From NCBI GenBank assembly GCA_030429735.1, contig JAUIET010000001.1, positions 558,001 through 622,000 of the forward strand: a DNA stretch of 64,000 nucleotides, read 5' to 3'. The position numbers and the translations under genes were made by a program. This document shows, one piece after another, positions 35,521-55,158 of the stretch (positions are counted from its first letter, which is position 1; each line of letters begins with the position of its first letter). The notes under the pieces are model-generated. The model saw nothing but the letters and a program-made list of their open reading frames with translations, was not told where the DNA came from and did no database searches. The DNA comes from Gammaproteobacteria bacterium (GTDB lineage: Bacteria; Pseudomonadota; Gammaproteobacteria; Pseudomonadales; JAUIET01).

Positions 35521-35556
35521 TTTAGCTTGCCAAACAAAATACGCCCTTTTTAATAA

Positions 35557-36851: not shown

Positions 36852-36906
36852 GCAGCTGACAATAGAAACTAGGGTCACCCATTAGAACTTGATGCAAACC
36901 AAGTAC

Positions 36907-37191: not shown

Positions 37192-37311
37192 AAATCTCCT
37201 GTTTTTTTGCTCAGCCCAATACGCTTTGGCTCGGTGATCTCGCAGACCATTCAACCAATCATCAAACGGCGCCTGCCCTTCCGAATTCTGATATTTTCTA
37301 AGTTCGCACAT
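37192..37311 (-). pseudogene. Internally deleted HigB/Gp49-like toxin, in frame with the antitoxin
   Basis: The frame from ATG 37311 gives MCELRKYQNSEGQAPFDDWL and then NGLRDHRAKA, the N-terminus of RelE/ParE-like Gp49 toxins, followed at once by YWAEQKNRRF, which resembles the C-terminal end of such toxins (a helix then a basic end). The middle, about 60 residues with the catalytic basic residues, is missing and the stop has been lost, fusing it to the antitoxin. It is very probably inactive as an RNase. Confidence 0.7.
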
Positions 37312-37315
37312 GCTC

Positions 37316-37337
37316 AATGTAGCTTATAAGCTACATT
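37316..37337. promoter_or_regulatory. 22-bp perfect palindromic operator of the toxin-antitoxin module
   Basis: AATGTAGCTTA is followed directly by its reverse complement TAAGCTACATT, with no spacer, five bases upstream of the toxin remnant's ATG 37311. Perfect dyads here are typical operators for antitoxin autorepression. Confidence 0.75.
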
Positions 37338-37406
37338 TTTGCAATGTATGCTGGTATTCCAATAGTTTGATTGGCTTTATAGAATTGAATGTACAGCGAA
37401 AGAGTC

Positions 37407-37419
37407 TAGGGTCAGGCCT
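37407..37419. repeat. 13-bp direct repeat, left copy (flanks the oxygenase gene)
   Basis: TAGGGTCAGGCCT, also present at 38497-38509. It lies eight bases beyond the stop codon of the 2-oxoglutarate oxygenase gene. Confidence 0.7.
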
Positions 37420-37426
37420 ACGGATC

Positions 37427-38452: not shown

Positions 38453-38496
38453 CGAGCTATTTGCCTGTTGGGCCGTGTGGGAAAGTATATAAGATT

Positions 38497-38509
38497 TAGG
38501 GTCAGGCCT
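38497..38509. repeat. 13-bp direct repeat, right copy
   Basis: TAGGGTCAGGCCT identical to 37407-37419, about 45 bases upstream of the oxygenase start. The following TGTCCCC is reminiscent of ends near REP-associated transposase elements, but no transposase is present. Confidence 0.7.
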
Positions 38510-38528
38510 GTCCCCAACATCCCAACAC

Positions 38529-38557
38529 CTGGCGATCCCGTCCCCGGGCACCATTAG
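38529..38557 (+). repeat. Degenerate second copy of a tRNA-Phe 3' end (attachment-site remnant)
   Basis: TGGCGATCCCGTCCCCGGGC then ACCATTAG aligns with the end of the intact tRNA-Phe (TGGTTCGATTCCGCCCCTGG then GCACCATTTAG) with few differences. It carries the CCCGGGC acceptor form seen in other bacteria's tRNA-Phe rather than the local CCTGGGC. It sits in the same orientation about 3 kb from the tRNA. Confidence 0.6.
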
Positions 38558-38673
38558 TTCAACAACAATTGACAAACGAAACCCATTAGAGAGCATTCGA
38601 ATCGCTTGATTTTGATATATACTTGTCTCAAGTGGATTGGGGGTGCCCGGTCGGCGCTATAGTCTCGGTGGGT

Positions 38674-39549
38674 TCACCGGGGCTTTTCGCTTTCTGGGGT
38701 AGGGAAAATTTTCATTCCTATGCCTTCGTAACCCTGGCCAACGTGCTCCCTACCGCCTTCACAGTAGAATTTACGTTTCAGAACCTCAAAGGCTCGGTTA
38801 CCTTGATCAGGCTTCACCGTTTTTAGGCCGATCGGTCGTGCTACGAGATCTGCTAATTGCAATCCCGAAGACATGGCTTTCTTGTCGGAGAATTGAATCT
38901 CAAAAGGCAAATCTATTCCCAGGCCGTTATTACCATCACAAAGTCGCCTGAACTCAAGTTCTAGTTCTTGGTCTTCTTTCTTTCCGCGGCATTCAAAAAC
39001 GATATGAGTTCTTAGTTTCGCCTGCTCTTTCTCCTCAAGAAAGCCATAGAGGGCCTCCATGCAGTACCGAAGCGCGATGTGATAGGGGTTTGTGTCTAAC
39101 TCATCTCTGGTCTTAAGTGCTCTTTTGTCAATGGTGCAGCTAATGAGCACGAAATTACTGCGATCGATGATTTCCGTTAATTGATCAAGGAAATACAAAT
39201 TCTCGTCCCGACTTTTGAATATATTGAAGGAACCCGATTCCTTGCGAATTTCATTCTCATGCAGAATGATTTGGTCATGACCGAACCAATTAAACTTGAA
39301 TTTCTCAAGCGCTGGAACAATAGCCTCGCTGTAGTGCCGTTTATGAAAAATACAAAATGCGAGAACAAATACTGGGTAGTTATCGTCGATGCTTTGCAGA
39401 CTATGGTCGCCACTCTCATCAACATAAACTATATATTTACTAAATTCAGGCGCAGCGGAGAATGTTTCTTGCTGCCCCTTGTCAGCCGAAAATTGCCTTT
39501 CTGGATCAGTATCAAATAGGGGTAATTGAGCTTCATCCTCAGCGCTCAC
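38674..39549 (-). CDS. DUF3800 domain-containing protein
   Basis: 291 residues. An acidic N-terminus is followed by the DUF3800 core (IVYVDESGDHSLQSID; DNYPVFVLAFCIF; later ECRGKKEDQELELEFRRL and SSGLQLADLVARPIG). The family is predicted to have an RNase H-like fold with acidic residues (the Asp-Glu of VDESGD and the late Asp of QLADL), and is common in defence regions; biochemical function is unknown. It starts at GTG 39549 with a strong GGAGG six bases before. It lies 39 bases after hsdR on the same strand, so it is probably the fourth gene of the hsd operon. Confidence 0.88.
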   Translation of the reverse strand: MSAEDEAQLPLFDTDPERQFSADKGQQETFSAAPEFSKYIVYVDESGDHSLQSIDDNYPVFVLAFCIFHKRHYSEAIVPALEKFKFNWFGHDQIILHENEIRKESGSFNIFKSRDENLYFLDQLTEIIDRSNFVLISCTIDKRALKTRDELDTNPYHIALRYCMEALYGFLEEKEQAKLRTHIVFECRGKKEDQELELEFRRLCDGNNGLGIDLPFEIQFSDKKAMSSGLQLADLVARPIGLKTVKPDQGNRAFEVLKRKFYCEGGREHVGQGYEGIGMKIFPTPESEKPR

Positions 39550-39588
39550 TTAAATCCTCCAACGATTAAGAACTGCAGCCATAGAATG

Positions 39589-42500
39589 TCAATTCCCCGC
39601 CGCATCCAATCCATCCTTAGGATCATACGCATTTCTACGAATCGTTCGAACGAGTTCAAGCACTTCCTTAGCTCGTTCATCGCCCATAATTCCCACAACG
39701 CCGTGATCATGGTGGTGGGTGAAGGGTTCGTCGAATAACTCTTTTTCTTCCATTACGCCATTCTTAACCAAGTAAGACACTACTTCATCTAGAAAGCGAA
39801 TCTGGTCAGGGTGCAAAGGTGCTTTGGCAATGAACTCGGCAAAGGCGTCTTTCGCGGCTTTTCTATCAAGACCTACAATTGACCGCACTAACAGGCCCAA
39901 AGGTTTTTCGCCATAAATACGGCTGTATTCCACGCGCGGAATTACTTCTGCTTCGTGAAACAACAGGTCTTCCAATGCGCCAATATCTGTTTCAGATACC
40001 GGCTGATTGTTGCGCAGCCTGCGAATAGTTATGTGATCTTTATGCTCTCGTATATACCGTTCCACTCGTGATCGGTAGTCGCTTAGATTCGGGTCGGCTT
40101 TAACGATCTCGTGCTCGGCTATACCCGTAAGGTCAATGGAGTCTTCAAAATCTGTATAGGTTTCGTAGTAACTGACATTCGGATCTGCGAAGCGCACCAA
40201 GCCTCGTAGCTTTAACCGAACATCTTCGAGTATTGGTAAACTAACATTCTGCCACCACGCATCAGTTTGCAAGGCCAGGATAAGCTCGATCTGCTGGGCA
40301 ACCATTGGAATGGCCTGCTTTTGCTCAAGATCTGCAGCCGTTTTCTTCACTGCTTTAATATAATTTTTAACTGAGCTGCTTTTTTGCAGTAATGCCACCT
40401 GAAGATTGAGTATCAATAGGTCAAGCCGTCGCGCAGTCTCTTCGTCATCGTCCGCCCAAGGCAACGAGGCAATCTTGTTCCCCAGCGATTCAATATCTTT
40501 CTCGGCAAGGGAATCCCAGCGCGCTCTATCCGTATATTGCTCCACCGTCTCGCGGTGCTTACGAACGAGGAAGTTATCAACATTCAGCGAGCACACAATC
40601 TCATGCATTTGGTTTTTAAGCTGCTCTGCTAAGTCATTCAAACCTTGCTCTTCTGCCTGAGCTTGCTGCAAAACCGTGGCCAGTTCCAAACGACGACGAA
40701 ATATCCGCTGCTTAACTGATTCCTGCGTTCGAGGTTCATAGCCATCTGGATTGGCGTCAAAGAATTCCAGATTTTCACAGTAATCAAACACAATGAATTC
40801 TTTCTTATGCTGCCCAGGACCAAAAATATCCGGGCACAAGCGAGTTCCCCGCCCTATCATTTGCCAGAACTTAGTTTTAGACCGAACCATTTTAAAGAAC
40901 ACCAGGTTCAATATCGGCGGCACGTCTATACCGGTATCTAGCATATCGACCGACACGGCTATTTGCGGCATTTTCTCCTGCAGCTCAAAATCGTCGATAA
41001 GGCTTTGAACATACTTAACCGAGTAATCTACCTGGCGACAAAATTTACCGGCAAGATGCGGATAGTTAGCATCAAACTGCTCAACAATAAACTCAGCATG
41101 CTTGGAGTTCTTGGCGAAAATAATGGTCTTCCCAAGCGTGTCGCCGCCCCCAACTCTTAGCCCATTTTCCATTAAGTGCATAAGCACTTTGTTTACCGTG
41201 TCTTTATTGAATAGCCATTTATTCAGCGCAGCCGAACCTATTTCGGTTTTTAGTTGGCCCTGTTCGTCATAAAACTGTTCCTCAAGCTCATACTCTTCTT
41301 GCTCTTCCTCAGAGAGCTCATGGTACTTAATACCTTCACGTTGAAACTGCAGCGGTACAGATATCGCTCGTGGTGGGTTGAGGAACCCGTCTTCCACCGC
41401 ATCTTTCAACTCGTAAGCAAATGTTGGCTGATGGTCCGCTAGCTCAAACAATCTATAAGTGTTTCGATCCAACTCACCTCGCGGAGTGGCGGTTAAGCCG
41501 ATCAACAGACTGTCAAAATAATCGAAGATGGCCCCGTACTTCTGATAAACACTGCGATGCGCTTCATCGATAATGATCAAATCGAAATGACCAACACTGA
41601 AAGTTTCGGTTTGGTTCTTCTTCGTGCCATCAATCAGATTTAACATGGTAGGGTAGGTGGAAAACACCACCCGCGCCGCCTCACGTTCCTCCTTCGAGGC
41701 ACTCTCCAGTAAGTTGGTTGTGCTGTAGGCCGGAATGTTGGCCACAAAGTTCTTCTTCGCCTGCTTCACCAGGCTAATACGATCTGCCAAAAACAACACT
41801 CGCCGTATCCAATTGCCGCGCATCAGCACGTCAACAATCGACATAGACAATCGCGTTTTGCCCGTGCCAGTCGCCATCACAATCAGCGCTTTGCGTTTAT
41901 TCTGCTCCTCAAACGCCTGCATCACTCGCGCTGTAGCTTCCAACTGATACGGCCTGCCAGCCACGTCCGCGTCTGGCGAAATCTGCAACAAGTTTTGTTT
42001 ACCACTACGCCGATTAAGCAACCAACTCAACTCATCACGCGTGTAGAAACCATGAACCTCACGTGGCGGGTACTGCGTATCATCCCAAAACCAGGTGGTG
42101 TAGCCATTCGTATAGAAAATAACGGGGCGGCGATTGAATTTCTTCTCCAGGCAATCGGCATATAGCTCCGCTTGGTGTTTACCCACCTTAGCGTTCACCT
42201 TGGTTTTCTTAGCCTCAACCACTGCCAGCGGCAAACCATCCTCACCCCACAGCACATAATCCACATACCCCACACCACTGTTGCTAGGCATACCGTGAAC
42301 TTCATACTCTTCTACATTCTTAGCCTTAGGGTCCCATCCCGCCTCACGCAACATCACATCAATAAATTCATCGCGTGTTTGCGACTCGGAATAATCGCCG
42401 GCCGGAATCTTCTTCTTGTTTTCCTCCTTGGTGACTTGCAGCAAAGCGAGCTGCTCTTTTAACTGCGCAATCTCAGCCTCAGAATGCTGCTGCGCCTCAA

Positions 42501-43050
42501 GCGCCTTGCGCTCCGCTTCATCCCGTCGCGCCAGCTCTTCACGAACTTTCTGCAACTGAATAATGGCTGCCTGTTCTGCTTTTTTGGATTCTTTTGCCTC
42601 AGCCTCGTTTTTGGCATCACCCTCCGCCGGTGGCAACAAGGTAATATTGAACTGCCCGGGTGCTGGACCACCTCGCGTATAAACCCTCGCCAACCAACCG
42701 GTAAACTGGAACAAAGCAACACAGGCTTTCATTCCTTCCTGAGTAGAAATCGGCTTGTCATCATGCGCCGCCAAGTTACCCAAGCGATGTATGTACTTGA
42801 TGTCGTTGAACAGCCCTGGCTTGATCGCGCCTTTGAAAGTAGGTTCATGGATCATTGCCGCCAGGTTGCGCTCGAAGGGTGCTTTCAGGCTGGTGTCGTT
42901 TTTGTATAGCCAGGCTAGACCTAGTTCTAATGTGCGGCGGGCGTAGAATGCGGCGGTGCGTGGGTCGCGGAAAGCGAAGGCCTCGACTCTTTTCGTTTCT
43001 TTATGCAGGAAACTCCAATTACTTTCAAGGAAATCGAAATTTGAGGGCAT
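39589..43050 (-). CDS. hsdR: Type I restriction endonuclease subunit R (HsdR)
   Basis: 1153 residues; the translocase and nuclease of a type I restriction system. An N-terminal DUF4145-like domain (about 20-120) and a charged coiled coil (about 160-215) precede the HSDR_N nuclease fold (DEFIDVMLREAGWDP; LAVVEAKKTK with the PD-ExK lysines). The SF2 helicase follows: Walker A MATGTGKTRLSM, DEAHRSVYQK, GLTATPRGE, and motif VI MIGRGTRLCPD. The EcoEI_R_C domain ends the protein. It cuts DNA lacking the cognate methylation far from the recognition site. ATG 43050 overlaps the hsdS stop (TAATG). Confidence 0.96.
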   Translation of the reverse strand: MPSNFDFLESNWSFLHKETKRVEAFAFRDPRTAAFYARRTLELGLAWLYKNDTSLKAPFERNLAAMIHEPTFKGAIKPGLFNDIKYIHRLGNLAAHDDKPISTQEGMKACVALFQFTGWLARVYTRGGPAPGQFNITLLPPAEGDAKNEAEAKESKKAEQAAIIQLQKVREELARRDEAERKALEAQQHSEAEIAQLKEQLALLQVTKEENKKKIPAGDYSESQTRDEFIDVMLREAGWDPKAKNVEEYEVHGMPSNSGVGYVDYVLWGEDGLPLAVVEAKKTKVNAKVGKHQAELYADCLEKKFNRRPVIFYTNGYTTWFWDDTQYPPREVHGFYTRDELSWLLNRRSGKQNLLQISPDADVAGRPYQLEATARVMQAFEEQNKRKALIVMATGTGKTRLSMSIVDVLMRGNWIRRVLFLADRISLVKQAKKNFVANIPAYSTTNLLESASKEEREAARVVFSTYPTMLNLIDGTKKNQTETFSVGHFDLIIIDEAHRSVYQKYGAIFDYFDSLLIGLTATPRGELDRNTYRLFELADHQPTFAYELKDAVEDGFLNPPRAISVPLQFQREGIKYHELSEEEQEEYELEEQFYDEQGQLKTEIGSAALNKWLFNKDTVNKVLMHLMENGLRVGGGDTLGKTIIFAKNSKHAEFIVEQFDANYPHLAGKFCRQVDYSVKYVQSLIDDFELQEKMPQIAVSVDMLDTGIDVPPILNLVFFKMVRSKTKFWQMIGRGTRLCPDIFGPGQHKKEFIVFDYCENLEFFDANPDGYEPRTQESVKQRIFRRRLELATVLQQAQAEEQGLNDLAEQLKNQMHEIVCSLNVDNFLVRKHRETVEQYTDRARWDSLAEKDIESLGNKIASLPWADDDEETARRLDLLILNLQVALLQKSSSVKNYIKAVKKTAADLEQKQAIPMVAQQIELILALQTDAWWQNVSLPILEDVRLKLRGLVRFADPNVSYYETYTDFEDSIDLTGIAEHEIVKADPNLSDYRSRVERYIREHKDHITIRRLRNNQPVSETDIGALEDLLFHEAEVIPRVEYSRIYGEKPLGLLVRSIVGLDRKAAKDAFAEFIAKAPLHPDQIRFLDEVVSYLVKNGVMEEKELFDEPFTHHHDHGVVGIMGDERAKEVLELVRTIRRNAYDPKDGLDAAGN

Positions 43051-44222
43051 TATGCAGTGGCCCCTATCCCGCCACCTTCCGATAATGCGGTGCTGGTAAG
43101 TGAAGAAATCAATTTATTGGTTTCAACCAGATCTTGCTCCGACCGATGCACCCAGCCCATTGCGTATTCGAAAATGGCTGAATATCGCGATCGCAAGTCG
43201 GAACTGGGCCATATAACTTCGACTAGGGAAAACTTGGACTTGCTAACCATTCCTTTCATACTATTTGTTGAGGCGGACCGAACCAATTTTTTGTTGTAGA
43301 GCAGTTGTCCATATAAAAAAAGCAATGACTCTACTGAGCTTGGTATCAGAGCATTTATTTGCTGATTGAACGCTACTGGTCTGTTCGCAATCGCTATGTT
43401 ACCAATGCATGCCTTGCTTCCGGCAATACAGGTTATCAACAAGGAATTGCTAGGAACGATTCTCGCTACCTCCGCACCAGCCTCGGACAAAAATTCTTTT
43501 GCAGTCGTAAGATAGTGTTCTGGCGTGTTTATGTTGTCAGACTTTACCCACTCTATATGGTCTCCGTAATATTCTGGTCGTTTTCGAGACGGAGTGTTCC
43601 CAGTAATCACCTCTCCCACCTCACTAAGTTTCTTCTTCTCAAACCCCTTAGGATTCAAAACCGGATCCCCAAACATATCCAAAAACACAGCCCGCAAAAA
43701 CTCATCAGCCAACTCAATAGCCTGCTGTCGCTTGCGCCGAATAGCGTCCGCCTTATCAAGAATCGCGGCTATGCGTTTTTGTTCTTTTAGGGGTGGAGCT
43801 GGAATCAGAGTGCTTTCCAATCTTCCTTTAGTTATATGTTTTAATCCAACCCCTCCATGTGCTTTATCGATTATTTGCGTAAGTCTTGAGTTTATTGCGT
43901 ATCTCAGGTAATTCTTGTTTACTTTTTTCTCGTCGACATCTACTCGGAATATGTGCTGATTGAGGTATGCCTCTCCACGGTTCCAAAAAAAGGCTCCAAA
44001 AGATGTTCCTGGGGTTCCTGACCAGGAGAACAATAGGTCTCCAGATTTGACATGGAATTTCTTCTCGATTTTTACTCCACAGTAATTAAAAGGTTTTTCG
44101 TCGTCATTCAGATTTTGTATTCGAACAATGGGAACGCCTGATGAAACCCATTCACTCGACTTGAAAGCACGCCCGTTCTGTAATGAACAAAGGGAGCCAA
44201 ATTCGACAATCGGCCAACTCAC
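43050..44222 (-). CDS. hsdS: Type I restriction specificity subunit S (HsdS)
   Basis: 390 residues with two target-recognition domains (about 1-145 and 190-340), each followed by a conserved helical spacer (LKEQKRIAAILDKADAIRRKRQQAIELADEF in the centre). It determines the bipartite DNA target of both methylation and cleavage. GTG 44222 overlaps the hsdM stop (GTGA). The recognition sequence cannot be derived from the protein by reading. Confidence 0.94.
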   Translation of the reverse strand: MSWPIVEFGSLCSLQNGRAFKSSEWVSSGVPIVRIQNLNDDEKPFNYCGVKIEKKFHVKSGDLLFSWSGTPGTSFGAFFWNRGEAYLNQHIFRVDVDEKKVNKNYLRYAINSRLTQIIDKAHGGVGLKHITKGRLESTLIPAPPLKEQKRIAAILDKADAIRRKRQQAIELADEFLRAVFLDMFGDPVLNPKGFEKKKLSEVGEVITGNTPSRKRPEYYGDHIEWVKSDNINTPEHYLTTAKEFLSEAGAEVARIVPSNSLLITCIAGSKACIGNIAIANRPVAFNQQINALIPSSVESLLFLYGQLLYNKKLVRSASTNSMKGMVSKSKFSLVEVIWPSSDLRSRYSAIFEYAMGWVHRSEQDLVETNKLISSLTSTALSEGGGIGATA

Positions 44223-45682
44223 AACATCCCCCTCAACTCCCCAATATCCCCCAATATCTCCTTCTCCAAAGCCTCCAGGCGATCCAATATCACCAAGGGC
44301 GGTTCATACTCCACTTCCTCATACTCAATCTCCTTATACCGGTTGATCGAAAGATCATACTTCTGCTCAACAATGTCTGCCTTATCAACCCCAAACGCCT
44401 TCAGCTTCTTGTCGTCAAACTCGCCCTCACCATTCTGCCAACGCTTGAACTGAGCAATAATGTCTGGAATATCACTGTCGTCGCGTGCTTCACGCTTATC
44501 ATCCAGCGAGTAGCCATCAGATTGCATATCATAGAAAAACACTTTATCCGTGCCGCCTGAATCAGTGCGTGTAAACAGTAATACAGCGGTAGACACACCT
44601 GCGTACGGCTTAAACACGCCCGACGGCATAGAAATTACCGCGTCCAGCTTGTGTTCTTCCACAATCGTTTCGCGAAGGTCCTTATGAGCTTTGCTTGAGC
44701 CAAACAATACGCCGTCAGGTACGATCACGGCGCAGCGACCACCGGGTGTAAGTTGCTTGAGTATCAGGCTAATGAACAGCAACTCGGTTTTCTTGGTTTT
44801 GCTGATCTGCAGTAAGTCTTTGGCTGTACCATCATAATCCAGTGAGCCTTTAAAGGGCGGGTTAGCCAATATCACACTGTATTTATTGCGCTGGTCGGCA
44901 TGGTCTTCACTTAAGGAATCGCGATCTGCAATTTGCGGATTGTCGATGCCGTGCAAGGTCATATTCATGGCACCTATGCGCAACATGCTGGAATCAAAGT
45001 CTGAGCCGTGGAACATTTCTTTATGGAAGTGTTCGCGTAACTTTTTATCTCGAAACAACTCTGGGTGATGATCTTCCAGATATTCCGCCGTAGTAACCAG
45101 AAAGCCACAGGTACCACAGGCCGGGTCGCACACCGTGTCTTTCGGCGTGGGCGCAACCAGCTCAACCATCATCTTGATAATATGCCTGGGCGTTCGAAAC
45201 TGCCCATTCTGCCCAGCCGTCGCAATCTTCGACAACATGTACTCGTACAAGTCACCCTTGGTATCGCGGTCTTCCATCGGGATGTCATCAATCATATTGA
45301 CGACCTTATCCAGCAGCGCGGCATTTGGGATGATAAACACCGCGTCTTTCATAAACTTGGTGTAGGAACTGCCGGCATTACCGTTCATGGATTTAATGAA
45401 GGGGAACACCTCATCTTTGAACACCTCGAACTTGCGCTCAGGTGCGAAGTTTTTAAAACGTGACCAGCGCAAGTCTTCCTCTGCGCTAGTGAAGATTGGC
45501 GCGTCTATAGGCTTTTCTAGAGTATTGGCTTTGAGCTCTTTCGCAATTTGTAGGTCATCCAATCTTTTGGCGAACAACAGGTAGGTGATTTGCTCTATGA
45601 CGGATAATGGGTTGGATACGCCCCCGGACCAGAAGGTGTTCCAGATTTGATCAACTTGGTTTCTTATTTGGCCGGTTAGCAT
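44219..45682 (-). CDS. hsdM: Type I restriction modification methyltransferase subunit M (HsdM)
   Basis: 487 residues. N-terminal HsdM_N helical domain (1-130), then the N6-adenine methyltransferase with SAM motif DPACGTCGFLV and catalytic motif ILANPPFKGS (NPPF). It methylates adenine in the target chosen by HsdS and protects the host. First gene of hsdM-hsdS-hsdR-DUF3800; it diverges from the helicase gene across a 136-base AT-rich gap that must contain both promoters. Confidence 0.97.
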   Translation of the reverse strand: MLTGQIRNQVDQIWNTFWSGGVSNPLSVIEQITYLLFAKRLDDLQIAKELKANTLEKPIDAPIFTSAEEDLRWSRFKNFAPERKFEVFKDEVFPFIKSMNGNAGSSYTKFMKDAVFIIPNAALLDKVVNMIDDIPMEDRDTKGDLYEYMLSKIATAGQNGQFRTPRHIIKMMVELVAPTPKDTVCDPACGTCGFLVTTAEYLEDHHPELFRDKKLREHFHKEMFHGSDFDSSMLRIGAMNMTLHGIDNPQIADRDSLSEDHADQRNKYSVILANPPFKGSLDYDGTAKDLLQISKTKKTELLFISLILKQLTPGGRCAVIVPDGVLFGSSKAHKDLRETIVEEHKLDAVISMPSGVFKPYAGVSTAVLLFTRTDSGGTDKVFFYDMQSDGYSLDDKREARDDSDIPDIIAQFKRWQNGEGEFDDKKLKAFGVDKADIVEQKYDLSINRYKEIEYEEVEYEPPLVILDRLEALEKEILGDIGELRGML

Positions 45683-45818
45683 TTAGTTTACTGCCTTTAC
45701 ATCTAACATATTTTACATTTTTGGCTCATCTTCTGAGTTGTTTACTGTATCGTAGATTCAATGCAGATAACTATCTAATTTGCTTAAAGAAATAACAATC
45801 AACAAATAGAGTCGTGTA

Positions 45819-48800
45819 GTGGCGCCCAAACGAGATTACATCCGTTTTACAACTGCTGAAATTGAGCAGGAATTTAAGCTCAAAAAAGATGATTTAGGCA
45901 TTCTTTTAAAGCTGAAAGCAGAGCTCGAGCATCGCAAACGACAAAGTGCAAAGAATTTGCTGGAAACAGTCAACCAGCAGATAGCGGCTTTGAAGGCGAA
46001 GCAAGGGATTACTCGCACCGAGCCTACAACACCGAAGAATAAACCACACGCAGCATCTAAGCCGACCCTCAAGTCTTCGTCGCAAACCGCCGCTAAACCT
46101 GAGACTCGACCAAAGTCAGACAGCAAAACTGAACCAAAGGCTGAGCAAGCAAGGAGTCAATCTTATACGCCACCAAGTCGTCCTGAAGTAATTCGTGTAT
46201 CGAATAAGGAAAAAACTAACCAGCCGCCGAACATTCTAGATGCTTGGACGATTATTGAGGCACTATCACCACAGAATTATAGATATGAACGCGAGCTTGC
46301 ATTTGGCAAAAATACAGTGGCCAAGTTTGATGCCGGTGGGCGGTTACCTTGGGAAAGAGGCGAAAAATCATTGCCACGGCACCAGCTTTACTACCTTGTG
46401 TATTTGGGCGCTGTTGACCTGCAGCTTGCGACTACTAACTTATTAAAGGTTTTTGAAGACTCAAGAGAGGAGCGGGTTTACCAGCAAGGGTTTGCTTCGA
46501 TGGGTTGCATAATAGTCAACAAGGACGGTGTGCCGATACCTGATTCCGGGCTATCGGTGGCCAGCTTCCCGTGGGCCTATGGCAGAGCTGTAAGCGGCAA
46601 GCTTGGAGAGTTGAAAAATTGGCCTGAAGCAGAAGAACAGCTGGTAGAGGGCTTGGAACGACAGCTCTATAGAGAAGACAGTCATGGCAAAGAATTGCCT
46701 CTGGATCACTCTGTTTTAGTTGGTGCGAGCCGATGGCTGCAACATAAATGTGAACTCTACGACGACGAAGTTAGGTTGCCCTCGTTCGCGATTAGATGTT
46801 TTCAGGCATTCGGCAAGAATGAGCCAGAACCACCAGTCATGAATAGTTTCTTCTTGAGCGATCTACAGCTTGTGAAGCAGAACTTCGAGCAGTCTGGCAT
46901 GGCATTACAACAGTACGTCGGTAGGAAAAAGTTCGCTCAGGAAGTTGACCTATTAAAAGACCATAAAGCACTGGAGGAGGTATTAAGACCAAAACAGACT
47001 CCAGCTGCGAGGTGGCCTGCTCCAGGTCGACACTCGCTTGTTTTACTTCAACAAGCCGCGGTAAATATTGCCGTTAACGCACCTAAGGTTGCCGGCGGTT
47101 TAGTATCGGTAAATGGCCCACCCGGCACCGGCAAAACAACTTTACTTAGAGACATTGTTGCATCAGCTGTACTGGACCGTGCAATCGAAATGTCAAAATT
47201 TGACAACCCCGAAAAAGCATTCATTGCTAAGGCGAAAACTAAAATCGGTAGTAATCAGGTTAGCGTGTTTAGCCTTGACCCATCACTGCGTGGTCATGAG
47301 GTAGTAATCGCTTCCTCGAATAACAAGGCAGTGGAAAATGTCAGCAGAGAATTGCCGCAACGAGATCAGATTGCTGAAGATATAGGGGAGTTTAGCTATT
47401 TTAGGACTATTAGTGACGCTATTGCTGGTACTGAGAATAGTACCTGGGGGCTCATGGCCGCCGTTTTGGGTAATTCGTCAAACAGGTATGAATTCAGCCA
47501 GGCGGCATGGTGGAATGAAGATACTGGGCTGAAAGCTTACTTTGGTGCGATCACCAGCCGCTTTAACTTTCCTGTTGATGACAACGGGGATGACATTATT
47601 CCCCTTGTGGTCAGTGAGAGTAATGCCCCAGCGAGCCCTGAAACCGCGCTTCAACGCTGGTCAGCTGAGAGAGCAGCCTTTGAGCGAGCGCTATCCAGTG
47701 CACAAGCCGTTCTGGATAAAGCACAAGAATCATCAGACGCCTTAAATTCATTGCGCTCTTTGCGGTTTGAAGAGAAGGAGATTGCTCTTGCAATAGAAGC
47801 TGCGCAATCTCATCTTAAGTCTACTTCCCAACAGTCAGTACAGTTTCAATCTATCAAGGATGCTAAGTTAAGCACCTTAAGTACAGTTGACCAGAAGCTC
47901 GAACAACACAATGCTGTGCGCCCTTCCTGGTTTGCTTTTATATTCTTTCTCAGCAAGGCCAAATCGTGGAAAGTAGAGACGGTGCGGTTACAGTCTATGC
48001 AGGGCGTTGCGATGGAAGAGTTTCGAGTTGCTGAGAGCAATATGAACGAGCATGCTTCCAAGCTAACTCATGCGAAAACAGCGCTAAATACGACAATAGA
48101 AAGTCAGCAGAATTGCCTTCGAGAAATCGAACGTTGTAAGCGAGTGATTGATTCCAACTCATCCGTTTGCGAAGGGTATTTGATTCAGCCAGGGTTTGAG
48201 CATCAACCCCACAGAGAACGCCAGCTGTTTACGCCGAACTTCAGCCCGAGAGCCCAGCAAGCTAGAGATGAATTGTTTACTGCGGCTATGAAGCTGCATA
48301 AGGCATTTATTGACGCGAGTGCCGTGCCTTTGGCTCAAAATATGGCCGCTTTGTTCCATGTACTTGGCAACAGAAAATTAAAGGGAGAGGCGCGAAGTTT
48401 ATTGGCAGACATCTGGGCGAGTGGCTTTCTCGTTACACCGGTCGTATCTACCACATTTGCTTCAGTTAGCAAGATGTTCGGCGGACTTTCAAAAGAGTCT
48501 CTGGGTTGGTTACTGATTGATGAAGCCGGCCAGGCGAGTCCGCAATACGCAATTGGCGCAATTTATCGCGCGAGAAATGTCATCGCGGTTGGCGATCCAT
48601 TACAAGTGGAACCGGTTGTTACCTTGCCCACAAGCTTGATAGAGGGAATTGCTGGGCATATGGGTGTCGATAGCATTCAATACACAGCACCCGATGCTTC
48701 CACCCAACAATTGGCGGACGCAGCAAATAAATATTTCACGCATTTTCAGAATCGTCTTAGCCAAGTTCGAGTTGGTATACCGCTACTTGTGCACCGGCGA

Positions 48801-49367
48801 TGCGAGAGCCCGATGTTCGAAATAAGCAATAAGTTGGCTTATGCCAACATGATGGTGTACGCAACTAGAGAAGGTGATTCCCGGCATAGAAACGTATTCG
48901 GTGGGAGCACTGGCTGGATTGACGTGCCCCACGGTACTGCCGAAGAAAAATGGTGTCCTGAAGAAGGAAAAAAAGTAGAAGACATGCTGCTTTCAGTTTT
49001 TAGAGCGGAGCAAGGAATGGCAGATGTTTTCGTCATAACGCCGTTTCGTATTGTGGCTGACAAACTGAGACAAGTTATCAAGCATGCACTATTGCGAGAA
49101 AACTTCAGTGATGATTTATGTGAAGAATGGGTGGCGGATCACATTGGTACAGTTCATACGTTCCAGGGCAAAGAAGCGGAAACAGTGATATTTGTGTTGG
49201 GAGCCCAGGGCCATAATCAGGAGGGAGCCCGCCGTTGGGCAACCAATAATGTAAATCTTCTGAATGTGGCCGTGTCTCGTGCGCAGAAGAATTTTTATGT
49301 GGTGGGCAACAAGGCGCTTTGGGCTAAGTTGGGAAATATGCAGGTTGTTTCTGCTCTGCTGAAGTAA
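45819..49367 (+). CDS. Large SF1 (Upf1/Dna2-like) helicase in a defence island
   Basis: 1182 residues from GTG 45819 (weak ribosome site). Residues 1-60 are a charged helical region, about 60-135 a Lys/Pro/Thr-rich disordered linker, about 140-390 an unrecognised domain. Then come SF1 motifs: Walker A VNGPPGTGKTTLLRDI (about 430), ASSNNKAVENV, a long insertion with coiled coil (about 600-800), Walker B LLIDEAGQASPQ (about 900), motif III AVGDPLQVEPV, motif V TVHTFQGKEAE and motif VI NVAVSRAQKNFYVVG. It could unwind DNA or RNA. It is divergent from the type I system and is followed after four bases by a thermonuclease gene. I cannot match it to a named defence system. Confidence 0.9.
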   Translation: MAPKRDYIRFTTAEIEQEFKLKKDDLGILLKLKAELEHRKRQSAKNLLETVNQQIAALKAKQGITRTEPTTPKNKPHAASKPTLKSSSQTAAKPETRPKSDSKTEPKAEQARSQSYTPPSRPEVIRVSNKEKTNQPPNILDAWTIIEALSPQNYRYERELAFGKNTVAKFDAGGRLPWERGEKSLPRHQLYYLVYLGAVDLQLATTNLLKVFEDSREERVYQQGFASMGCIIVNKDGVPIPDSGLSVASFPWAYGRAVSGKLGELKNWPEAEEQLVEGLERQLYREDSHGKELPLDHSVLVGASRWLQHKCELYDDEVRLPSFAIRCFQAFGKNEPEPPVMNSFFLSDLQLVKQNFEQSGMALQQYVGRKKFAQEVDLLKDHKALEEVLRPKQTPAARWPAPGRHSLVLLQQAAVNIAVNAPKVAGGLVSVNGPPGTGKTTLLRDIVASAVLDRAIEMSKFDNPEKAFIAKAKTKIGSNQVSVFSLDPSLRGHEVVIASSNNKAVENVSRELPQRDQIAEDIGEFSYFRTISDAIAGTENSTWGLMAAVLGNSSNRYEFSQAAWWNEDTGLKAYFGAITSRFNFPVDDNGDDIIPLVVSESNAPASPETALQRWSAERAAFERALSSAQAVLDKAQESSDALNSLRSLRFEEKEIALAIEAAQSHLKSTSQQSVQFQSIKDAKLSTLSTVDQKLEQHNAVRPSWFAFIFFLSKAKSWKVETVRLQSMQGVAMEEFRVAESNMNEHASKLTHAKTALNTTIESQQNCLREIERCKRVIDSNSSVCEGYLIQPGFEHQPHRERQLFTPNFSPRAQQARDELFTAAMKLHKAFIDASAVPLAQNMAALFHVLGNRKLKGEARSLLADIWASGFLVTPVVSTTFASVSKMFGGLSKESLGWLLIDEAGQASPQYAIGAIYRARNVIAVGDPLQVEPVVTLPTSLIEGIAGHMGVDSIQYTAPDASTQQLADAANKYFTHFQNRLSQVRVGIPLLVHRRCESPMFEISNKLAYANMMVYATREGDSRHRNVFGGSTGWIDVPHGTAEEKWCPEEGKKVEDMLLSVFRAEQGMADVFVITPFRIVADKLRQVIKHALLRENFSDDLCEEWVADHIGTVHTFQGKEAETVIFVLGAQGHNQEGARRWATNNVNLLNVAVSRAQKNFYVVGNKALWAKLGNMQVVSALLK

Positions 49368-49371
49368 CTTT

Positions 49372-50070
49372 ATGAAATCAATTCTTCTATTTCTTAGCTA
49401 CATGCGTCGATTATGGACTGCATTTCTAGTTCTGCTGACATTGAGTATGAATGCAAACGGTGCCAGCTTGGCAGGCTCGATAAGTCACTTTAGCGATGGC
49501 GATTCCTTTGAAATCTGGAATCAGCGCATCCGCCTGCTTGGAATTGATGCTCCAGAGTTCGGGCAGGAATGTAAGCGCGCCAGTGGCGCAGTTTATGCCT
49601 GTGGCGATGAGTCGCTCAAATTCCTTAAAAGATACGTTGCTAATACTGAAGTGAAATGCGAAGGAGATGCGAAGGATGATCACGGACGCCTGCTTGCTAC
49701 CTGTTTTGTTAATGGCAAGAATTTGAATGAGACCTTAGTTCGAAAAGGGTGGGCCGTGGCGTTTATTCGATATGATGATCGTTATTTAAACCAAGAGAAA
49801 CAAGCTAAAACGGAAAAACTGGGCCTGTGGCAGGGAGAATTCCAACGGCCAGCAAGTTATAGAAACAAAGCATGGAATTCAGCTGCTGAGCAGCGTAAAG
49901 AAGATTGTGTAATCAAAGGAAATATAAACCGGAAAGGTATTCGTATCTATCATACTCCTTGGGGCTCAAGGCATTATTCTCGAACTAAGATCAATACGAG
50001 TTATGGTGAGCGCTGGTTTTGCTCAGAGGCCGAGGCTGTTAAGGCCGGCTGGCGTGCACCGTATCGTTAA
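49372..50070 (+). CDS. Thermonuclease (SNase-like) family protein
   Basis: 232 residues. A hydrophobic N-terminal signal-like segment (about 11-31; a start at ATG 49402 would give MRRLWTAFLVLLTLS directly) is followed by a staphylococcal-nuclease fold (ISHFSDGDSFEIWNQRIRLLGIDAPE; catalytic Arg/Asp/Glu; HGRLLATCFV) and a C-terminal module (GNINRKGIRIYHTPWGSRHY; GERWFCSEAEAVKAGWRAP). Such proteins cut DNA or RNA with calcium, usually outside the cytoplasm. It starts four bases after the helicase stop, so the two are one operon. Confidence 0.9.
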   Translation: MKSILLFLSYMRRLWTAFLVLLTLSMNANGASLAGSISHFSDGDSFEIWNQRIRLLGIDAPEFGQECKRASGAVYACGDESLKFLKRYVANTEVKCEGDAKDDHGRLLATCFVNGKNLNETLVRKGWAVAFIRYDDRYLNQEKQAKTEKLGLWQGEFQRPASYRNKAWNSAAEQRKEDCVIKGNINRKGIRIYHTPWGSRHYSRTKINTSYGERWFCSEAEAVKAGWRAPYR

Positions 50071-50072
50071 GC

Positions 50073-50294
50073 TCATGTTTGCGGCGTCAGGTCGCATACT
50101 GCATGATCAGGGAGGTCTAATTTGGGGCAGTAATTACCTTTAACATCGCCCACACCCGTAACGCCTTTCTTCCAAGACAAATCTATGTAGCTACACCTTG
50201 AACAATTATCGTGGCTGCCATACGCTTTTTCACCAATGGCTCTGGAACGATATGTTAAAGTTGTTAGAATATGGCGGAGTACGTCGGAAAACAA
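50073..50294 (-). CDS. Possible small Cys-rich protein
   Basis: A 73-residue open frame, convergent with the thermonuclease gene, with a CSRC pair and two more cysteines (NYCPKLDL, AVCDLTPQ). I do not recognise it and no clear ribosome site is seen. It may be a zinc-binding small protein or chance; it occupies most of the gap before the DUF262 gene. Confidence 0.3.
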   Translation of the reverse strand: MFSDVLRHILTTLTYRSRAIGEKAYGSHDNCSRCSYIDLSWKKGVTGVGDVKGNYCPKLDLPDHAVCDLTPQT

Positions 50295-50353
50295 ATGTTT
50301 TTTGTCGCCGCAGCCGATTGTGAAACTAACTCTTCAATATTCGTGGACCAACA

Positions 50354-52150
50354 ATGGGATCGCAGAAATACGCTGTAAACCAGCATTTAATTGAAGCGCT
50401 ACTTAACTGGGTCAAAACTGGTGAAATAGCGATACCAGAAATTCAACGACCATTTGTCTGGGACGCATCAAAGGTTCGCGACCTGATGGATAGCCTATAC
50501 CAAGGATATCCAGTCGGTTACATAATAGCGTGGCGGAATCCTACGGTTAGATTGAAAGACGGAACGCTTGCGGAAGGAAAGAAAATTCTTATTGACGGGC
50601 AACAACGCGTGACCGCGCTACAGGCGGCCATCGCGGGGCAGCAGGTTATTAATAAGGACTACAAGAAGATAAGAATACGAATTGCATTTCACCCAATTAG
50701 AGAAGAGTTTGAGGTGGCTAACCCCGCCATCGACAAAGACAGAACATGGTTTTCTGATATAGGCCCAATAGTGAGCGGCGAGGTCAAAACACACAACATT
50801 GCGAAGCAGTATCTGGAGCGAAACCCCGACGTTGAAGAAGACACGGTTTATGAAAGACTGGACCGTTTGACTGATATCATAAAAAAGCAAATTGGCTTGA
50901 TCGAATTGGCGCCTGACCTCGATATTGAAACAGTTACCGAGATATTCATTCGGATAAACTCGAAGGGCGTAGTTCTGAGCCAAGCAGACTTTGTGATGTC
51001 GAAGATTGCCGCGAATGAAGAGCACCAAGGAAACACGTTGCGAAAAGCTATCGACTATTTTTGTCATCTAGCTGTCGCGCCAGAGTTCCATGCACACATA
51101 GAAGAGAATGATCAGGAGTTTGCCAATACCGGTTATTACTCGGCAATGCGTTGGCTTAAGAATGAAAATGACGACATATATGACCCAAGCTATTCAGATA
51201 TGCTCCGTGTCGCATTCACATCCCGATTCAACAGAGGGCGCTTAGCGGATTTGGTCGGCCTGCTTTCTGGCCGGAATTTTGAAACACGAACCTATGAGAA
51301 GGATATTGAAGAGCAATCATTCTCGCTTCTTAGTGAAGGTGTGAAGGAGTTTATGAATGAAACACATTTCACTCGGTTCGTAATGATCATACGTGGTGCC
51401 GGATTTGTAGATGCCGGTATGATTAGATCACAAGGCGCACTCAATTTTGGCTATATCTTGTATTTAAAGTTAAAGCGCGACCTAGGAAATGAGCCAAAAA
51501 TTGAATCTTGGGTACAACGTTGGTTTGTATTAAGTGTATTAACGCAGCGTTATTCCGGGTCTGCTGAATCTCAATTTGATAGAGATATAAAGAATATCGA
51601 TGACCGAGCGTTTGAAGAGTTTATTAGCGAGGTCGAAGCAGCGAGCCTGGGCGATGCATTTTGGGATGCACGACTGATTCAAGACTTAAACACTTCATCT
51701 ACCAACCATCCGGCTTTCAAGGTATATCTAGCAGCGCAAGCCAGAAACGGGGACCGGGGGTTCTTATCAAAAGATATATCTGTTCGTGACATGTTAATTC
51801 ATCACGGCGATATTCATCACGTATTTCCGAAAAACTATCTAAAGAAAATAGGCCTGCCTAGAAGAAAGTACAACCAGCTGGCTAATTTCGTTTATCTACA
51901 GCAGGAGGTTAACATCAAGATCGGCGATAGAGCGCCAAGCGATTACATAGCAACTGCATTCGAGCAATGCGAAACACAGGCACCAGTGTTTGGCGCGATA
52001 ATTGATCGCGTTCAGATCGAACGCAATCTTAGGCTCAATTGCTTGCCTGTTGATCTTTTGGAGTATGAGTTAGATAACTATGAGAAATTTCTAAGCAACC
52101 GCAGAGCAGCGATGGCTAAAAAGATAAGGGATTACTATTTCTCGCTGTGA
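50354..52150 (+). CDS. DUF262/HNH protein (GmrSD-like)
   Basis: 598 residues. The N-terminal DUF262 domain ([36 protein letters not shown]) is a ParB/sulfiredoxin-like NTPase-type fold; the C-terminal part carries an HNH motif ([13 protein letters not shown], then [10 protein letters not shown]). DUF262 with an HNH or DUF1524 partner is the design of GmrSD, a type IV enzyme that attacks modified (glucosylated) phage DNA, and of BrxU-like proteins. The function here, nucleotide-dependent cleavage of modified DNA, is inferred. No DUF1524 is recognised; the HNH is within the same chain. Confidence 0.87.
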
Positions 52151-52168
52151 GGTATGTACAGCCCGACA

Positions 52169-53152
52169 CTATGCAGTGCTGAGCAAAGTATTCTTACGAT
52201 GCCAATCCAGATAGTACTTTTTATCTTCTGATATGCTAGCTCGCGGTAATTCACTCCTCGAACCAATGATACCCATACGATGCATGGCATCTCGGTCAGC
52301 AGTATCTGCCAGAATTAAACCTCCGTTATTCTCGAAGCTGATAAATCCTTTATCGAACAGATGATCAATAGTAGGGGTAAGCATAAAACCGTTCTCAGGG
52401 TCCAGACGCTCATCATTGTCGGCACTTCGCCAGGGTTTGATATGGCTGGCTATGAGGTGCTCTGGCTTAGACACTCCCGTAATGCGACATTCCCTTTCTC
52501 TTGCCATCACCTCGGCGCGAAACCTGCCTTGCCCTCGGCGAGCGAGGATAACTGCTTCCTTTTGCGTTGCAGACAGGTTTTCAGATTCCGTCAGCGATGC
52601 AACCACTCGGTCTTCCCACTCTTGAATATTACTTTCTACGGTGTGCTCTGCAAAAGTAGCATCCTTAACAGCCAGATCGGTAACCAGGTTCACAGCATGT
52701 GAATCGATATTTCTTGCAAGCCACAGGGCTAGAGGTTTATCAATCTCAAACAGGTAGGCTTGATTGGCGTACCCATTCTCGCTCTTCAGTGGTGAGTATG
52801 AAATTGGCAGGAGTGCCCGTATTTCATCAATATGATCAATTGTGCGGATAGGATTTTCTAACTTTTGGTACCTAACGTCGACCTTCCAGCCTTCTTCAGA
52901 CCAGTTAGCCCCCGCATTGCCAAATTCAATTGGCTTCGGGAACGTATAACAATGAGTTTGTGCAACACCAATGGCAATAATCTGGGATTTAGCATACGAG
53001 AAAACGATGTCTCCTTGCTGTACAGTCTTCATCAATTCGTAGGAGAAATGCGTTCTGTCATTAGCCTGCCTTTTGGGTGACCACATGTAGCCATTCCCAC
53101 TACCAATTTCGTGCGAATGCGTCTGCTTTTGATTTACCCACCAATACTTCAT
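52169..53152 (-). CDS. EVE-like domain fused to HNH endonuclease
   Basis: 327 residues. The N-terminal 130 residues look like an EVE/PUA-type modified-base reader (MKYWWVNQKQTHSHEIGSG; GDIVFSYAKSQIIAIGVA; PIEFG), and the C-terminal part is an HNH nuclease (CRITGVSKPEHLIASHIKPW; DPENGFMLTPTIDHLFDKGFI). EVE/YTH-like modules joined to HNH nucleases are predicted modification-dependent restriction enzymes. It converges on the DUF262 gene. Confidence 0.85.
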   Translation of the reverse strand: MKYWWVNQKQTHSHEIGSGNGYMWSPKRQANDRTHFSYELMKTVQQGDIVFSYAKSQIIAIGVAQTHCYTFPKPIEFGNAGANWSEEGWKVDVRYQKLENPIRTIDHIDEIRALLPISYSPLKSENGYANQAYLFEIDKPLALWLARNIDSHAVNLVTDLAVKDATFAEHTVESNIQEWEDRVVASLTESENLSATQKEAVILARRGQGRFRAEVMARERECRITGVSKPEHLIASHIKPWRSADNDERLDPENGFMLTPTIDHLFDKGFISFENNGGLILADTADRDAMHRMGIIGSRSELPRASISEDKKYYLDWHRKNTLLSTA

Positions 53153-53198
53153 CGGCTAACTATGTCCAATTCCACCCCGATTGTCACTACTCCGCCCC

Positions 53199-53570
53199 CT
53201 ACTCCGCCCCCCACTCCACAACCCTCAACGCCGGCGGCCTCCGCTTATTCCGATAATCAAGATGCAAATTAATAAACGCCTGGTCATGCCAGTGACAACC
53301 AGCGCAATACAGTTCATCGCCAATTTTGCGCAAATACGCGGCGTCGCGGTAATACACGGCGCGGCCAATAAAGCTGCCTATTTGGGAATCTGTGTAGTAC
53401 TCGCGGTCTGAGAATATCGCCGCTAAATCGCTTAACTGATCTAGGCCTGGAATGCGCTCGGTTTTCTTTTTAAGAAACCATACTTCATCGGCCAGTTGCT
53501 CTACCAGGTCTTGAGTAACCAGTTCCTTAAAGCGCCGCAGCGCAACTCGCTTTTGAAACTCGGATGGCAT
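53199..53570 (-). CDS. Hypothetical protein
   Basis: 123 residues, mostly alpha-helical and charged in the first 60 (QKRVALRRFKELVTQDLVEQ), then AAYLRKIGDELYCAGCHWHD and a basic end. I do not recognise a family. The CAGCH motif is unlikely to bind haem because no signal peptide is present; a metal site is possible. It lies between two HNH genes, on the same strand as the EVE-HNH gene and 46 bases from it. Confidence 0.6.
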   Translation of the reverse strand: MPSEFQKRVALRRFKELVTQDLVEQLADEVWFLKKKTERIPGLDQLSDLAAIFSDREYYTDSQIGSFIGRAVYYRDAAYLRKIGDELYCAGCHWHDQAFINLHLDYRNKRRPPALRVVEWGAE

Positions 53571-53708
53571 TGACTTTCGCTCAGCCTTAACGAATTAGGC
53601 GCTAATATACATAGTTAGACTGTATATTTAACCAGTATTTATTGGTAGAATAACAACCGAACATTCCAATCTGCACCTGCCCGTTTAAGCCCTAAAGGTA
53701 ACACGAAA

Positions 53709-55055
53709 ATGAATGCCATCGCCAAGCCCTGCTTTACAAATTCAAACCCGGTTGACCTCACGCAACTGGAGCAAGACATTACTCAGCTGGCCTCGAACAT
53801 TAACGCGGCTAACTACCAATTGATGCTTCTTATCGCTGAGTTCGACAAACACCGGGGTTGGGCCAAATGGGGTTGCCGGTCTTGCGCGCACTGGCTGAAC
53901 TGGAAATGTGGTATTGCCTTGGGTGCAGCGCGTGAGAAGGTTCGGGTAGCTCGTGCGCTGGGTGAATTGCCAAAGGTAAGTGCGGCGTTTGCCAGTGGGC
54001 AGCTCAGTTATTCCAAGGCTCGCGCGATTACGCGGGTTGCCAGCGCGGAAAATGAAGACCAGTTGCTGATGATTGCCGAACATGGGTCGGCGAGCCATAT
54101 TGAAAAAACAGTGCGGCATTTTAGCCGGGTTACCAGGGAGAAGGCTCAGGCCGAGCACAGCAAACGCTGTTTGCGCTACTACTGGGATGACAACGGCAAT
54201 CTGGTGGTGCATGCGCGTTTAAACGCCGAACAGGGTGCCTTGTTTCTTAAAGCACTGAATACTACCGCAGACACTTTGGAGCAAGACGAGTGGAAAACCG
54301 GGCAGGAGGAAACGGCGGAGGATAAAAACGTTTCCGCGGAGACGCTTCCGGCAACTGTTGCGCACCTTGCACCCGAAAAACCACAGCGGCGCATGAGCCG
54401 GCGAGCGGATGCGCTGGTGATGATGGCTGAATGCCAGCTGGAAAACCTGAGTAGCAGCTGTAAAACGGCTGACCGCTACCAGGTGAGTATTCAGGTGGAT
54501 GTTGCAGGAACAGAAACCACCTGTGGCCTGGAGGATGGGCCGGCGTTGGCGGAGGAAACGGTGAAACGGGTGTGCTGCGACGCCAGTGTAAGCCAGGTGC
54601 TTTCTCGCAACGGCGAGCCGCTGTCGATCGGGCGCAAGGCGCGCACTATTCCGCCACCTATGCGCCGTGCCCTGCAGCGCCGCGATGGGGGGTGCAAGTT
54701 TCCGGGGTGTTGCAGTTCACGATTTGTTGACGGGCACCATATTCAGCACTGGAGCGGAGGGGGTGACACCAGCCTGAATAATCTGGTGCTGCTGTGCAGG
54801 CATCACCATCGTTTGGTGCATGAAGGCGGCTATTGCGTTACGCGAAGCGCAAGCGGCGAGCTGGTGTTTCATCGGCCGGATGGTGTATGCATACATCCAG
54901 TTCCGCAAATGCCTGACTCAAGCGCGTTACCGCGCGTGGCGCGAAGCAAATGGTTTTGGAAAGGTGATACGATGGACTATGGCCTGGCGGTGGAAACCCT
55001 GGTGCTTAAGCGCGAGCGAGTGAAACGCGTTTCCGCGGAAACGTTTTCTTTGTAG
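53709..55055 (+). CDS. DUF222/HNH endonuclease signature protein (13E12 type)
   Basis: 448 residues. The DUF222 domain (about 15-300, QLMLLIAEFDKHRGWAKWG; GELPKVSAAFASGQLSYSKA) is followed by an HNH motif (PGCCSSRFVDGHHIQHWSGG; TSLNNLVLLCRHHHRLVHEG). This family is frequent in actinobacteria as REP13E12 repeats and scattered in proteobacteria; it is probably a mobile-type nuclease, biological role unproven. An internal linker carries a Glu/Lys tract near residue 210. AGGTAAC precedes the ATG. It seems to be the last accessory gene on this side. Confidence 0.87.
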   Translation: MNAIAKPCFTNSNPVDLTQLEQDITQLASNINAANYQLMLLIAEFDKHRGWAKWGCRSCAHWLNWKCGIALGAAREKVRVARALGELPKVSAAFASGQLSYSKARAITRVASAENEDQLLMIAEHGSASHIEKTVRHFSRVTREKAQAEHSKRCLRYYWDDNGNLVVHARLNAEQGALFLKALNTTADTLEQDEWKTGQEETAEDKNVSAETLPATVAHLAPEKPQRRMSRRADALVMMAECQLENLSSSCKTADRYQVSIQVDVAGTETTCGLEDGPALAEETVKRVCCDASVSQVLSRNGEPLSIGRKARTIPPPMRRALQRRDGGCKFPGCCSSRFVDGHHIQHWSGGGDTSLNNLVLLCRHHHRLVHEGGYCVTRSASGELVFHRPDGVCIHPVPQMPDSSALPRVARSKWFWKGDTMDYGLAVETLVLKRERVKRVSAETFSL

Positions 55056-55158
55056 CGGGCTAGTGTATGATCGGAACAGCTAAAGACTTCGGTGCTGCAC
55101 ATCCAGGTTGCACATCTAGGAAGGCGAATCTATCCAACCAAGGCACGGCATTTAGTGT

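Follow-up and report, generated by a model that had tools for sequence, protein, structure and literature searches.

A 64,000-nucleotide window of a gammaproteobacterial genome (assembly GCA_030429735.1, contig JAUIET010000001.1, positions 558,001 to 622,000) carries a gene for a UPF1-like superfamily 1 (SF1) helicase that is closely followed by a gene for a staphylococcal-nuclease-type protein (SNase). We favor, at a probability of roughly 0.63, the interpretation that the first is a self-standing Mokosh- or CnuH-like defense helicase residing in a variable island at a tRNA-Phe gene, and that the second is an unrelated, exported nuclease that lies behind it. It is likelier that the two genes came together by local accident than that they form a new bipartite defense system. 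The open reading frames (ORFs) fall where an earlier reading of the sequence only had placed them:

45819-49367, + strand, UPF1-like SF1 helicase of 1182 amino acids (aa), GTG start, resembling the core of Mokosh MkoC (ORF, Pfam, PADLOC, AlphaFold2 (AF2), fold match)
49372-50070, + strand, SNase-type protein of 232 aa, ATG start, with a leader (ORF, Pfam, NCBIfam, alignment)

Both genes lie on the + strand, and four bases (49368-49371) separate them. In alignments, the GTG start brings the N-terminus of the helicase into register with the start of its relatives. The only feature upstream of the nuclease start that might serve translation is a short purine stretch; as it sits at the helicase stop, translational coupling would be possible. 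A promoter scan returned no + strand site ahead of either gene and was uninformative.

The sequence-only reading took this close coupling as a sign of joint function, a proposal that the comparative data do not support. Using an unfiltered six-frame search, which finds all of 58 known SNase loci, we surveyed 114 helicase loci and nine further plasmid loci, 123 in all with the window's own excluded. In none does an SNase lie downstream of the helicase; 111 of them offer at least 800 bp of downstream sequence and 12 offer less than 800 bp. The helicase loci include some near-duplicates (102 distinct of 103) and one distant SF1 protein (L045, 74 bits). The reciprocal survey also came back empty: the 91 nuclease or sunset-domain loci (58 nuclease loci with flanks of at most 1.5 kb, 29 loci on viral contigs and four on plasmids) were all free of the helicase; the loci from genome searches were the best places only, and in 14 of the 29 viral loci the match is chiefly to the sunset part. 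No SNase was present in 20 control regions totaling 280 kb. In other genomes the pair is largely not conserved, one of the outcomes that the sequence-only reading had named as refuting its proposal.

Several points weigh against our interpretation, most of them in favor of a two-gene defense unit in which the helicase would sense or unwind invading nucleic acid and the SNase effector would replace the phospholipase D (PLD) or Mrr nucleases of relatives; the nuclease would then be cytoplasmic, e.g. made without its leader from Met26. The 4-base gap is compatible with translational coupling. The co-occurrence search, which did not find the helicase-SNase order again, did return three plasmid loci with a same-strand SNase upstream of the helicase (L035, L279 and L282). 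In the first of these (Ancylobacter pratisalsi plasmid pLGM), an SNase-type ORF (L035:6929-7555) that is absent from the PLSDB gene table and lies between plasmid replication genes ends 430 bp before the helicase; its product is 40% identical to the window nuclease over 130 aa and is without the sunset part. In the other two, on Acetobacter plasmids that resemble each other, the SNase is a weak match (4e-5 to 6e-5) and lies some 6 kb before the helicase, from which several genes separate it. Nucleases do occur directly downstream of some relatives: Mrr-type endonucleases follow four related helicases (L036:11627-13264, L037:11307-12917, L039:11270-12973 and L044:7908-8912), Mrr_cat being matched in L037 and L044, and those of L036 and L039 being 51% identical to that of L037. 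There is a precedent in CoCoNuT systems, whose UPF1-like CnuH helicases, bearing a helical, coiled-coil insertion, have downstream swappable nucleases termed CnuE (PMC11090510). Finally, a PADLOC candidate SNase family, C3a212 (SNc+LTD), matches the nuclease weakly (1.9e-7).

Set against these points are the 123 helicase loci and 91 nuclease or sunset loci that fail to repeat the arrangement, the leader and six cysteines that suggest export of the nuclease (the N-terminus of the Ancylobacter SNase, too, is hydrophobic by eye), and the lack of a match to a winged helix-turn-helix (wHTH) or other adaptor domain in the nuclease. The three plasmid loci are the sole comparative hint of a helicase-SNase link and lend slight support to a functional pair; because SNases are abundant on plasmids, occurring on more than 5000 of 72,556 plasmid records, chance is a plausible explanation of the linkage. 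We thus deem a two-gene unit improbable.

The features of the helicase are as follows:

45852-46001, + strand, N-terminal three-helix segment, aa 12-61 (AF2 helices 12-21, 26-36 and 42-61; kept in aligned relatives)
46011-46160, + strand, disordered linker, aa 65-114 (predicted local distance difference test score (pLDDT) <50)
46206-47048, + strand, conserved N-terminal mixed alpha/beta region, aa 130-410, apparently at the UPF1 stalk/1B position
47115-47141, + strand, Walker A, GPPGTGKTT, aa 433-441 (little or no variation among the 37 aligned sequences)
47637-48155, + strand, coiled-coil insertion, aa 607-779, placed after the Walker A region and before motif II (AF2 helices 607-699 and 712-779)
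48519-48533, + strand, motif II, DEAGQ, aa 901-905 (alignment)
49263-49283, + strand, motif VI region, NVAVSRA, aa 1149-1155 (alignment)

Pfam, Foldseek and VIA all bear out the initial description of the 1182-residue protein as a Upf1/Dna2-like SF1 helicase. Pfam assigns AAA_11 (411-934) and AAA_12 (1001-1165); with the alignment and the fold match, this establishes two RecA domains with SF1 motifs and a UPF1-type fold. The AF2 model, built on 37 aligned sequences, has a mean pLDDT of 88.3. Its best Foldseek match is senataxin (8ftm_B, SETX, 8.8e-16), followed more weakly by Upf1 and Sen1, while VIA gave Z values of 18.6-20.5 for UPF1, IGHMBP2, Sen1 and Dna2 entries (e.g. 4b3g_B: Z 20.5, root-mean-square deviation 5.2, 467 aligned). 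The resemblance to UPF1, IGHMBP2, Sen1, SETX and Dna2 extends over the core and, apparently, the stalk region at 10-20% identity; the window helicase differs from them in its extra N-terminal helices and in the long coiled-coil insertion, which had also been foreseen and which AF2 renders as two long helices.

The N-terminus had been called unrecognised, a description that calls for correction. The N-terminal helices and residues 130-410 are conserved in 36 relatives of 34-45% full-length identity; R5, L15, E16, E35, L36, R39, A44 and L47 are conserved in the helical segment, and W143, E147, W178, G197 and N342-F344 are invariant in the 37 aligned sequences, the window's included. In the full-length model, the VIA aligned ranges for UPF1, IGHMBP2, Sen1 and Dna2 begin at aa 121-133, and these ranges suggest that residues from about 130 onward take the place of the stalk and 1B of UPF1-type helicases. 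The structure prediction that had been proposed for this region was run on residues 1-420 without the core (pLDDT 84.1); this model had no Foldseek match in the PDB at E <=0.001 (9kjx_A came closest, at 0.43), and its Z values in VIA did not exceed 4.8. NCBIfam identities were rejected as partial and far below their cut-offs: ProA (40 of 1500 bits), PLuB (37.5 of 999), the IGHMBP2 family (37.5 of 348.9) and Hhe (22 of 2000 bits).

Among defense profiles, the helicase best matches PADLOC MkoC PDLC03924 (2.7e-66, aa 407-1173 against profile positions 249-952 of 1136). The same profile fits every one of the 11 members of the first helicase alignment and all of 8 more distant ones. The likeness resides in a UPF1/COG1112-type helicase core. 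In Mokosh type II, the C-terminus of the helicase is a PLD nuclease (PMC11672841 and PMC10952713). The window helicase, in contrast, leaves profile positions 953-1136 unmatched, has no PLD in Pfam, shows an HxKx4D string only in isolation (at aa 289), and stops 27 aa past motif VI, so that there is no room for a C-terminal nuclease domain. Membership in Mokosh type II was rejected because this nuclease part is missing; type I was rejected because the neighboring gene encodes an SNase and Pfam shows no kinase or PLD on the helicase or the scanned flanking genes.

Likened by description, CnuH is, like the window helicase, a UPF1-like SF1 protein with a coiled-coil insertion after Walker A. A downstream nuclease gene, CnuE, is found in some members; the window nuclease is without a wHTH and looks exported. 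We rejected membership in CoCoNuT, as CnuB and CnuC (McrB/McrC) and a downstream effector with an elongated wHTH are lacking: McrBC (PF10117) had no match in the whole of the organism's own genome, and there was no McrB-like match in the genes scanned. In Hachiman, HamB is a superfamily 2 helicase and HamA is not known to be an SNase. The likeness of HamAB to the window pair, as a helicase and a nuclease with sensor/effector logic, is one of description only (PMC12278908). In keeping with the earlier failure to match the pairing to a named system, none was found by domain or defense profiles, structure or literature search, the last returning no paper on an SNase-helicase defense pair among open-licence papers.

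The helicase belongs to a broad family of UPF1/SETX/IGHMBP2-like SF1 proteins, mostly of about 1000-1250 aa, that spans several phyla and retains the conserved N-terminal region and the coiled-coil insertion. It was matched at 1e-60 in 11 of 398 sampled genomes of the phylum, its own included, and a scan of the genome collection kept the best 80 of at least 428 confirmed loci. Any match to the helicase was found in 718 plasmid records, 19 of which were inspected; in 20 records one place covered at least 80% of the query. Relatives also occur in four phage records and on ten viral contigs. The surroundings of family members are rich in defense genes: 113 neighboring ORFs from 33 helicase loci match 85 PADLOC families at 1e-15, versus 12 families for 117 ORFs of 20 other regions (profile families, not genes, were counted; ORFs above 900 aa were excluded from both sets; and the control regions came from other genomes). 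Shango, BREX, CBASS, AbiE and Druantia are among the 25 of the 85 families displayed. On an Azospirillum plasmid (L284:7920-18558), the genes around a related helicase encode an ATP-binding protein, a TerB-domain protein and another helicase; we take this set to be Shango-like.

This excess, together with a best profile that is a defense protein and that recurs across the family, argues that the window's copy would serve defense as well. It speaks against the notion that the helicase maintains or repairs plasmids and islands, its neighborhood reflecting the mobile element only. We regard that notion as unlikely, notwithstanding that relatives lie on plasmids beside replication, partition and transfer genes (L035, L040, L279, L280 and L282), and that 6 of the 113 neighboring ORFs match Phage_integrase and 3 a type IV secretion system coupling protein, counts for which there is no control set.

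A close same-strand gene follows the helicase in only 40 of 103 loci, as counted from a filtered ORF list, in which an ORF overlapped by a longer one is omitted. Few of these genes recur, and a fixed partner is therefore unlikely; the recurrent ones are the four Mrr-type genes, two genes for membrane proteins, and those of two near-identical locus pairs (L087/L111 and L143/L147). No conserved downstream partner of the family thus emerged among the 40. In a FastTree phylogeny of 92 helicases, that of the window groups with L042, L043, L076, L077 and L078 (support 0.993). The gene downstream encodes a membrane protein in L042 and is an opposite-strand ORF in L043 and L078; in L076 and L077 the sequence stops 185 and 381 bp past the helicase, and no nuclease start is seen there. 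The helicases with Mrr-type neighbors form no single clade (the smallest clade holding them has 61 members), nor do those with membrane-protein neighbors (45 members). Given this scatter, downstream genes appear to be gained and lost. The Mrr and membrane-protein partners also have homologues that occur without this helicase.

The membrane protein deserves separate mention. It is a multi-pass protein without Pfam or PADLOC match, encoded directly after the helicase in two distant lineages (L042:7677-8993, - strand; L085:9492-10844, + strand), and on an Arcobacter plasmid a homologue is instead preceded by an AAA_13 (PDC-S06-like) ATPase. Defense ATPases may employ it as an exchangeable partner. 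The helicase family as a whole might be viewed as a platform with varied partners (Mrr endonuclease, multi-pass membrane protein, KAP ATPase, exported SNase, the last also in loose linkage on some plasmids) that in this lineage would provide a two-compartment defense, with a secreted nuclease at the envelope and the helicase inside; we give this proposal little credence.

The nuclease comprises three parts:

49372-49470, + strand, hydrophobic leader (about aa 1-33), putatively a signal peptide; translation might instead start at Met11 or Met26
49525-49833, + strand, SNase domain, aa 52-154 (Pfam PF00565, 1.3e-19)
49912-50061, + strand, sunset domain, aa 181-230 (NF051437, 42.5 bits, cut-off 27)

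That this protein looks exported had been noted at the outset, and its leader, judged from hydropathy only, agrees: the highest hydropathy windows start at residues 11-19. Together with the six cysteines of the protein, the leader points to export. In an alignment to 1snd, R54, D59, E62 and R106 correspond to SNase R35, D40, E43 and R87, which we take to be catalytic positions; D44, just outside the Pfam domain, is the likely equivalent of SNase D21. Both proteins are presumed to be active enzymes. Pfam and NCBIfam returned only the SNase and sunset matches and no wHTH, HTH or other adaptor family.

The best relative of the nuclease in the genome collection is 47% identical, the best-scoring other match within 194 same-order genomes is 33% identical, and the best plasmid relatives, mostly alphaproteobacterial, are 36-44% identical. 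Like the window nuclease, members of this thermonuclease family have an SNase domain, and many show, by eye, a leader-like N-terminus and a sunset-like motif; unlike it, none examined, many of them on alphaproteobacterial plasmids, adjoins this helicase. Neighbors differ among the relatives inspected, save for one setting that is common to several genomes of one family. On a Microvirga plasmid (L274:1-5675), a relative lies 40 bp after a run of same-strand hypothetical genes, one of them weakly ZorA-like (5.6e-8). Sunset-type motifs are present on 14 viral contigs (L230-L243), where the query is matched mainly in its sunset part rather than its SNase part.

The conserved catalytic positions, the leader and the defense island would also suit a two-layer protection without contact between the proteins: the exported nuclease would cut phage or plasmid DNA as it crosses the envelope, the helicase would handle the cytoplasmic remainder, and co-transcription or linkage would be their only tie. 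The loose SNase linkage on the three plasmids and the multi-pass membrane protein directly downstream of two related helicases (L042 and L085) are consistent with such a scheme, and SNIPE provides a precedent for cutting at DNA entry; it is described in PMC13190303 as a nuclease that is bound to the membrane, cuts phage DNA upon injection, and has a transmembrane helix, DUF4041, and a GIY-YIG domain on the cytoplasmic side. That domain is unrelated to the window nuclease, for which Pfam shows SNase only, and we rejected membership in SNIPE on the strength of that description. As the arrangement was not found again, and as phage blocking by secreted SNases remains conjecture, we consider the two-layer scheme doubtful.

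The pair lies among the following features:

35445-35520, tRNA-Phe
35557-36564, domain fusion of RhuM and Fic, adjacent to tRNA-Phe
39589-45682, - strand, type I restriction system HsdM/HsdS/HsdR, divergent from the helicase (Pfam)
50354-52150, + strand, GmrSD_N (DUF262) protein (Pfam, only GmrSD_N)
52169-53152, - strand, HNH_2 protein (Pfam)
56859-59867, 1002-aa ORF that matches nothing in Pfam at 0.01

Reading from tRNA-Phe, the order is RhuM-Fic, a 2OG-Fe(II) oxygenase, DUF3800, HsdR/HsdS/HsdM and the helicase-nuclease pair, to the right of which come the GmrSD_N protein, the HNH_2 protein, a DUF222-HNH protein and a GSDH enzyme. By PADLOC and Pfam, the setting is of the defense type that the sequence-only reading had described, with the type I restriction system on the left and GmrSD_N on the right. 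The single DUF262-HNH nuclease that it had placed on the right resolves into a DUF262 gene that matches only GmrSD_N and a separate HNH_2 gene on the other strand.

The guanine-plus-cytosine content of 35521-55100 is 47.9%, as against 52.7% to the left and 50.8% to the right. In the only same-genus genome listed (G001), some 15 kb separates tRNA-Phe from the DUF2059 flank, and the interval holds other cargo; hence, the region from tRNA-Phe to DUF2059 (35445-60478) is a variable island. One of the genes between the flanks in that genome is presumably an integrase. The DUF3800 (80% identical) and DUF222-HNH (70%) genes of the island are kept there in a different order. No convincing direct repeats were found at the island ends.

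Under the interpretation that we favor, of a self-standing helicase with an unrelated nuclease behind it, the helicase would be a cytoplasmic, ATP-driven translocase that loads on abnormal or foreign nucleic acid via its N-terminal stalk/1B-like region; it would act alone, or its long coiled coil would engage whichever effector is available. The nuclease would be an exported, metal-dependent SNase of a common type that carries a sunset domain and degrades DNA or RNA periplasmically or extracellularly. It would have arrived behind the helicase in this lineage and is probably just carried along on the transcript of the helicase gene. If the two proteins do not work together, it is no longer puzzling that the nuclease is exported while the helicase is cytoplasmic.

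The pairing itself is probably of little consequence. The helicase family, found on plasmids and viral contigs and in several phyla, may be of more interest. PADLOC-DB recognizes it chiefly through a partial hit to Mokosh MkoC, even though the window's member is without the PLD effector; if such proteins are counted as Mokosh type II, then Mokosh type II is over-called. If, on the other hand, such helicases defend alone, they would offer a simple, single-gene test of the role of UPF1-like helicases in bacteria.

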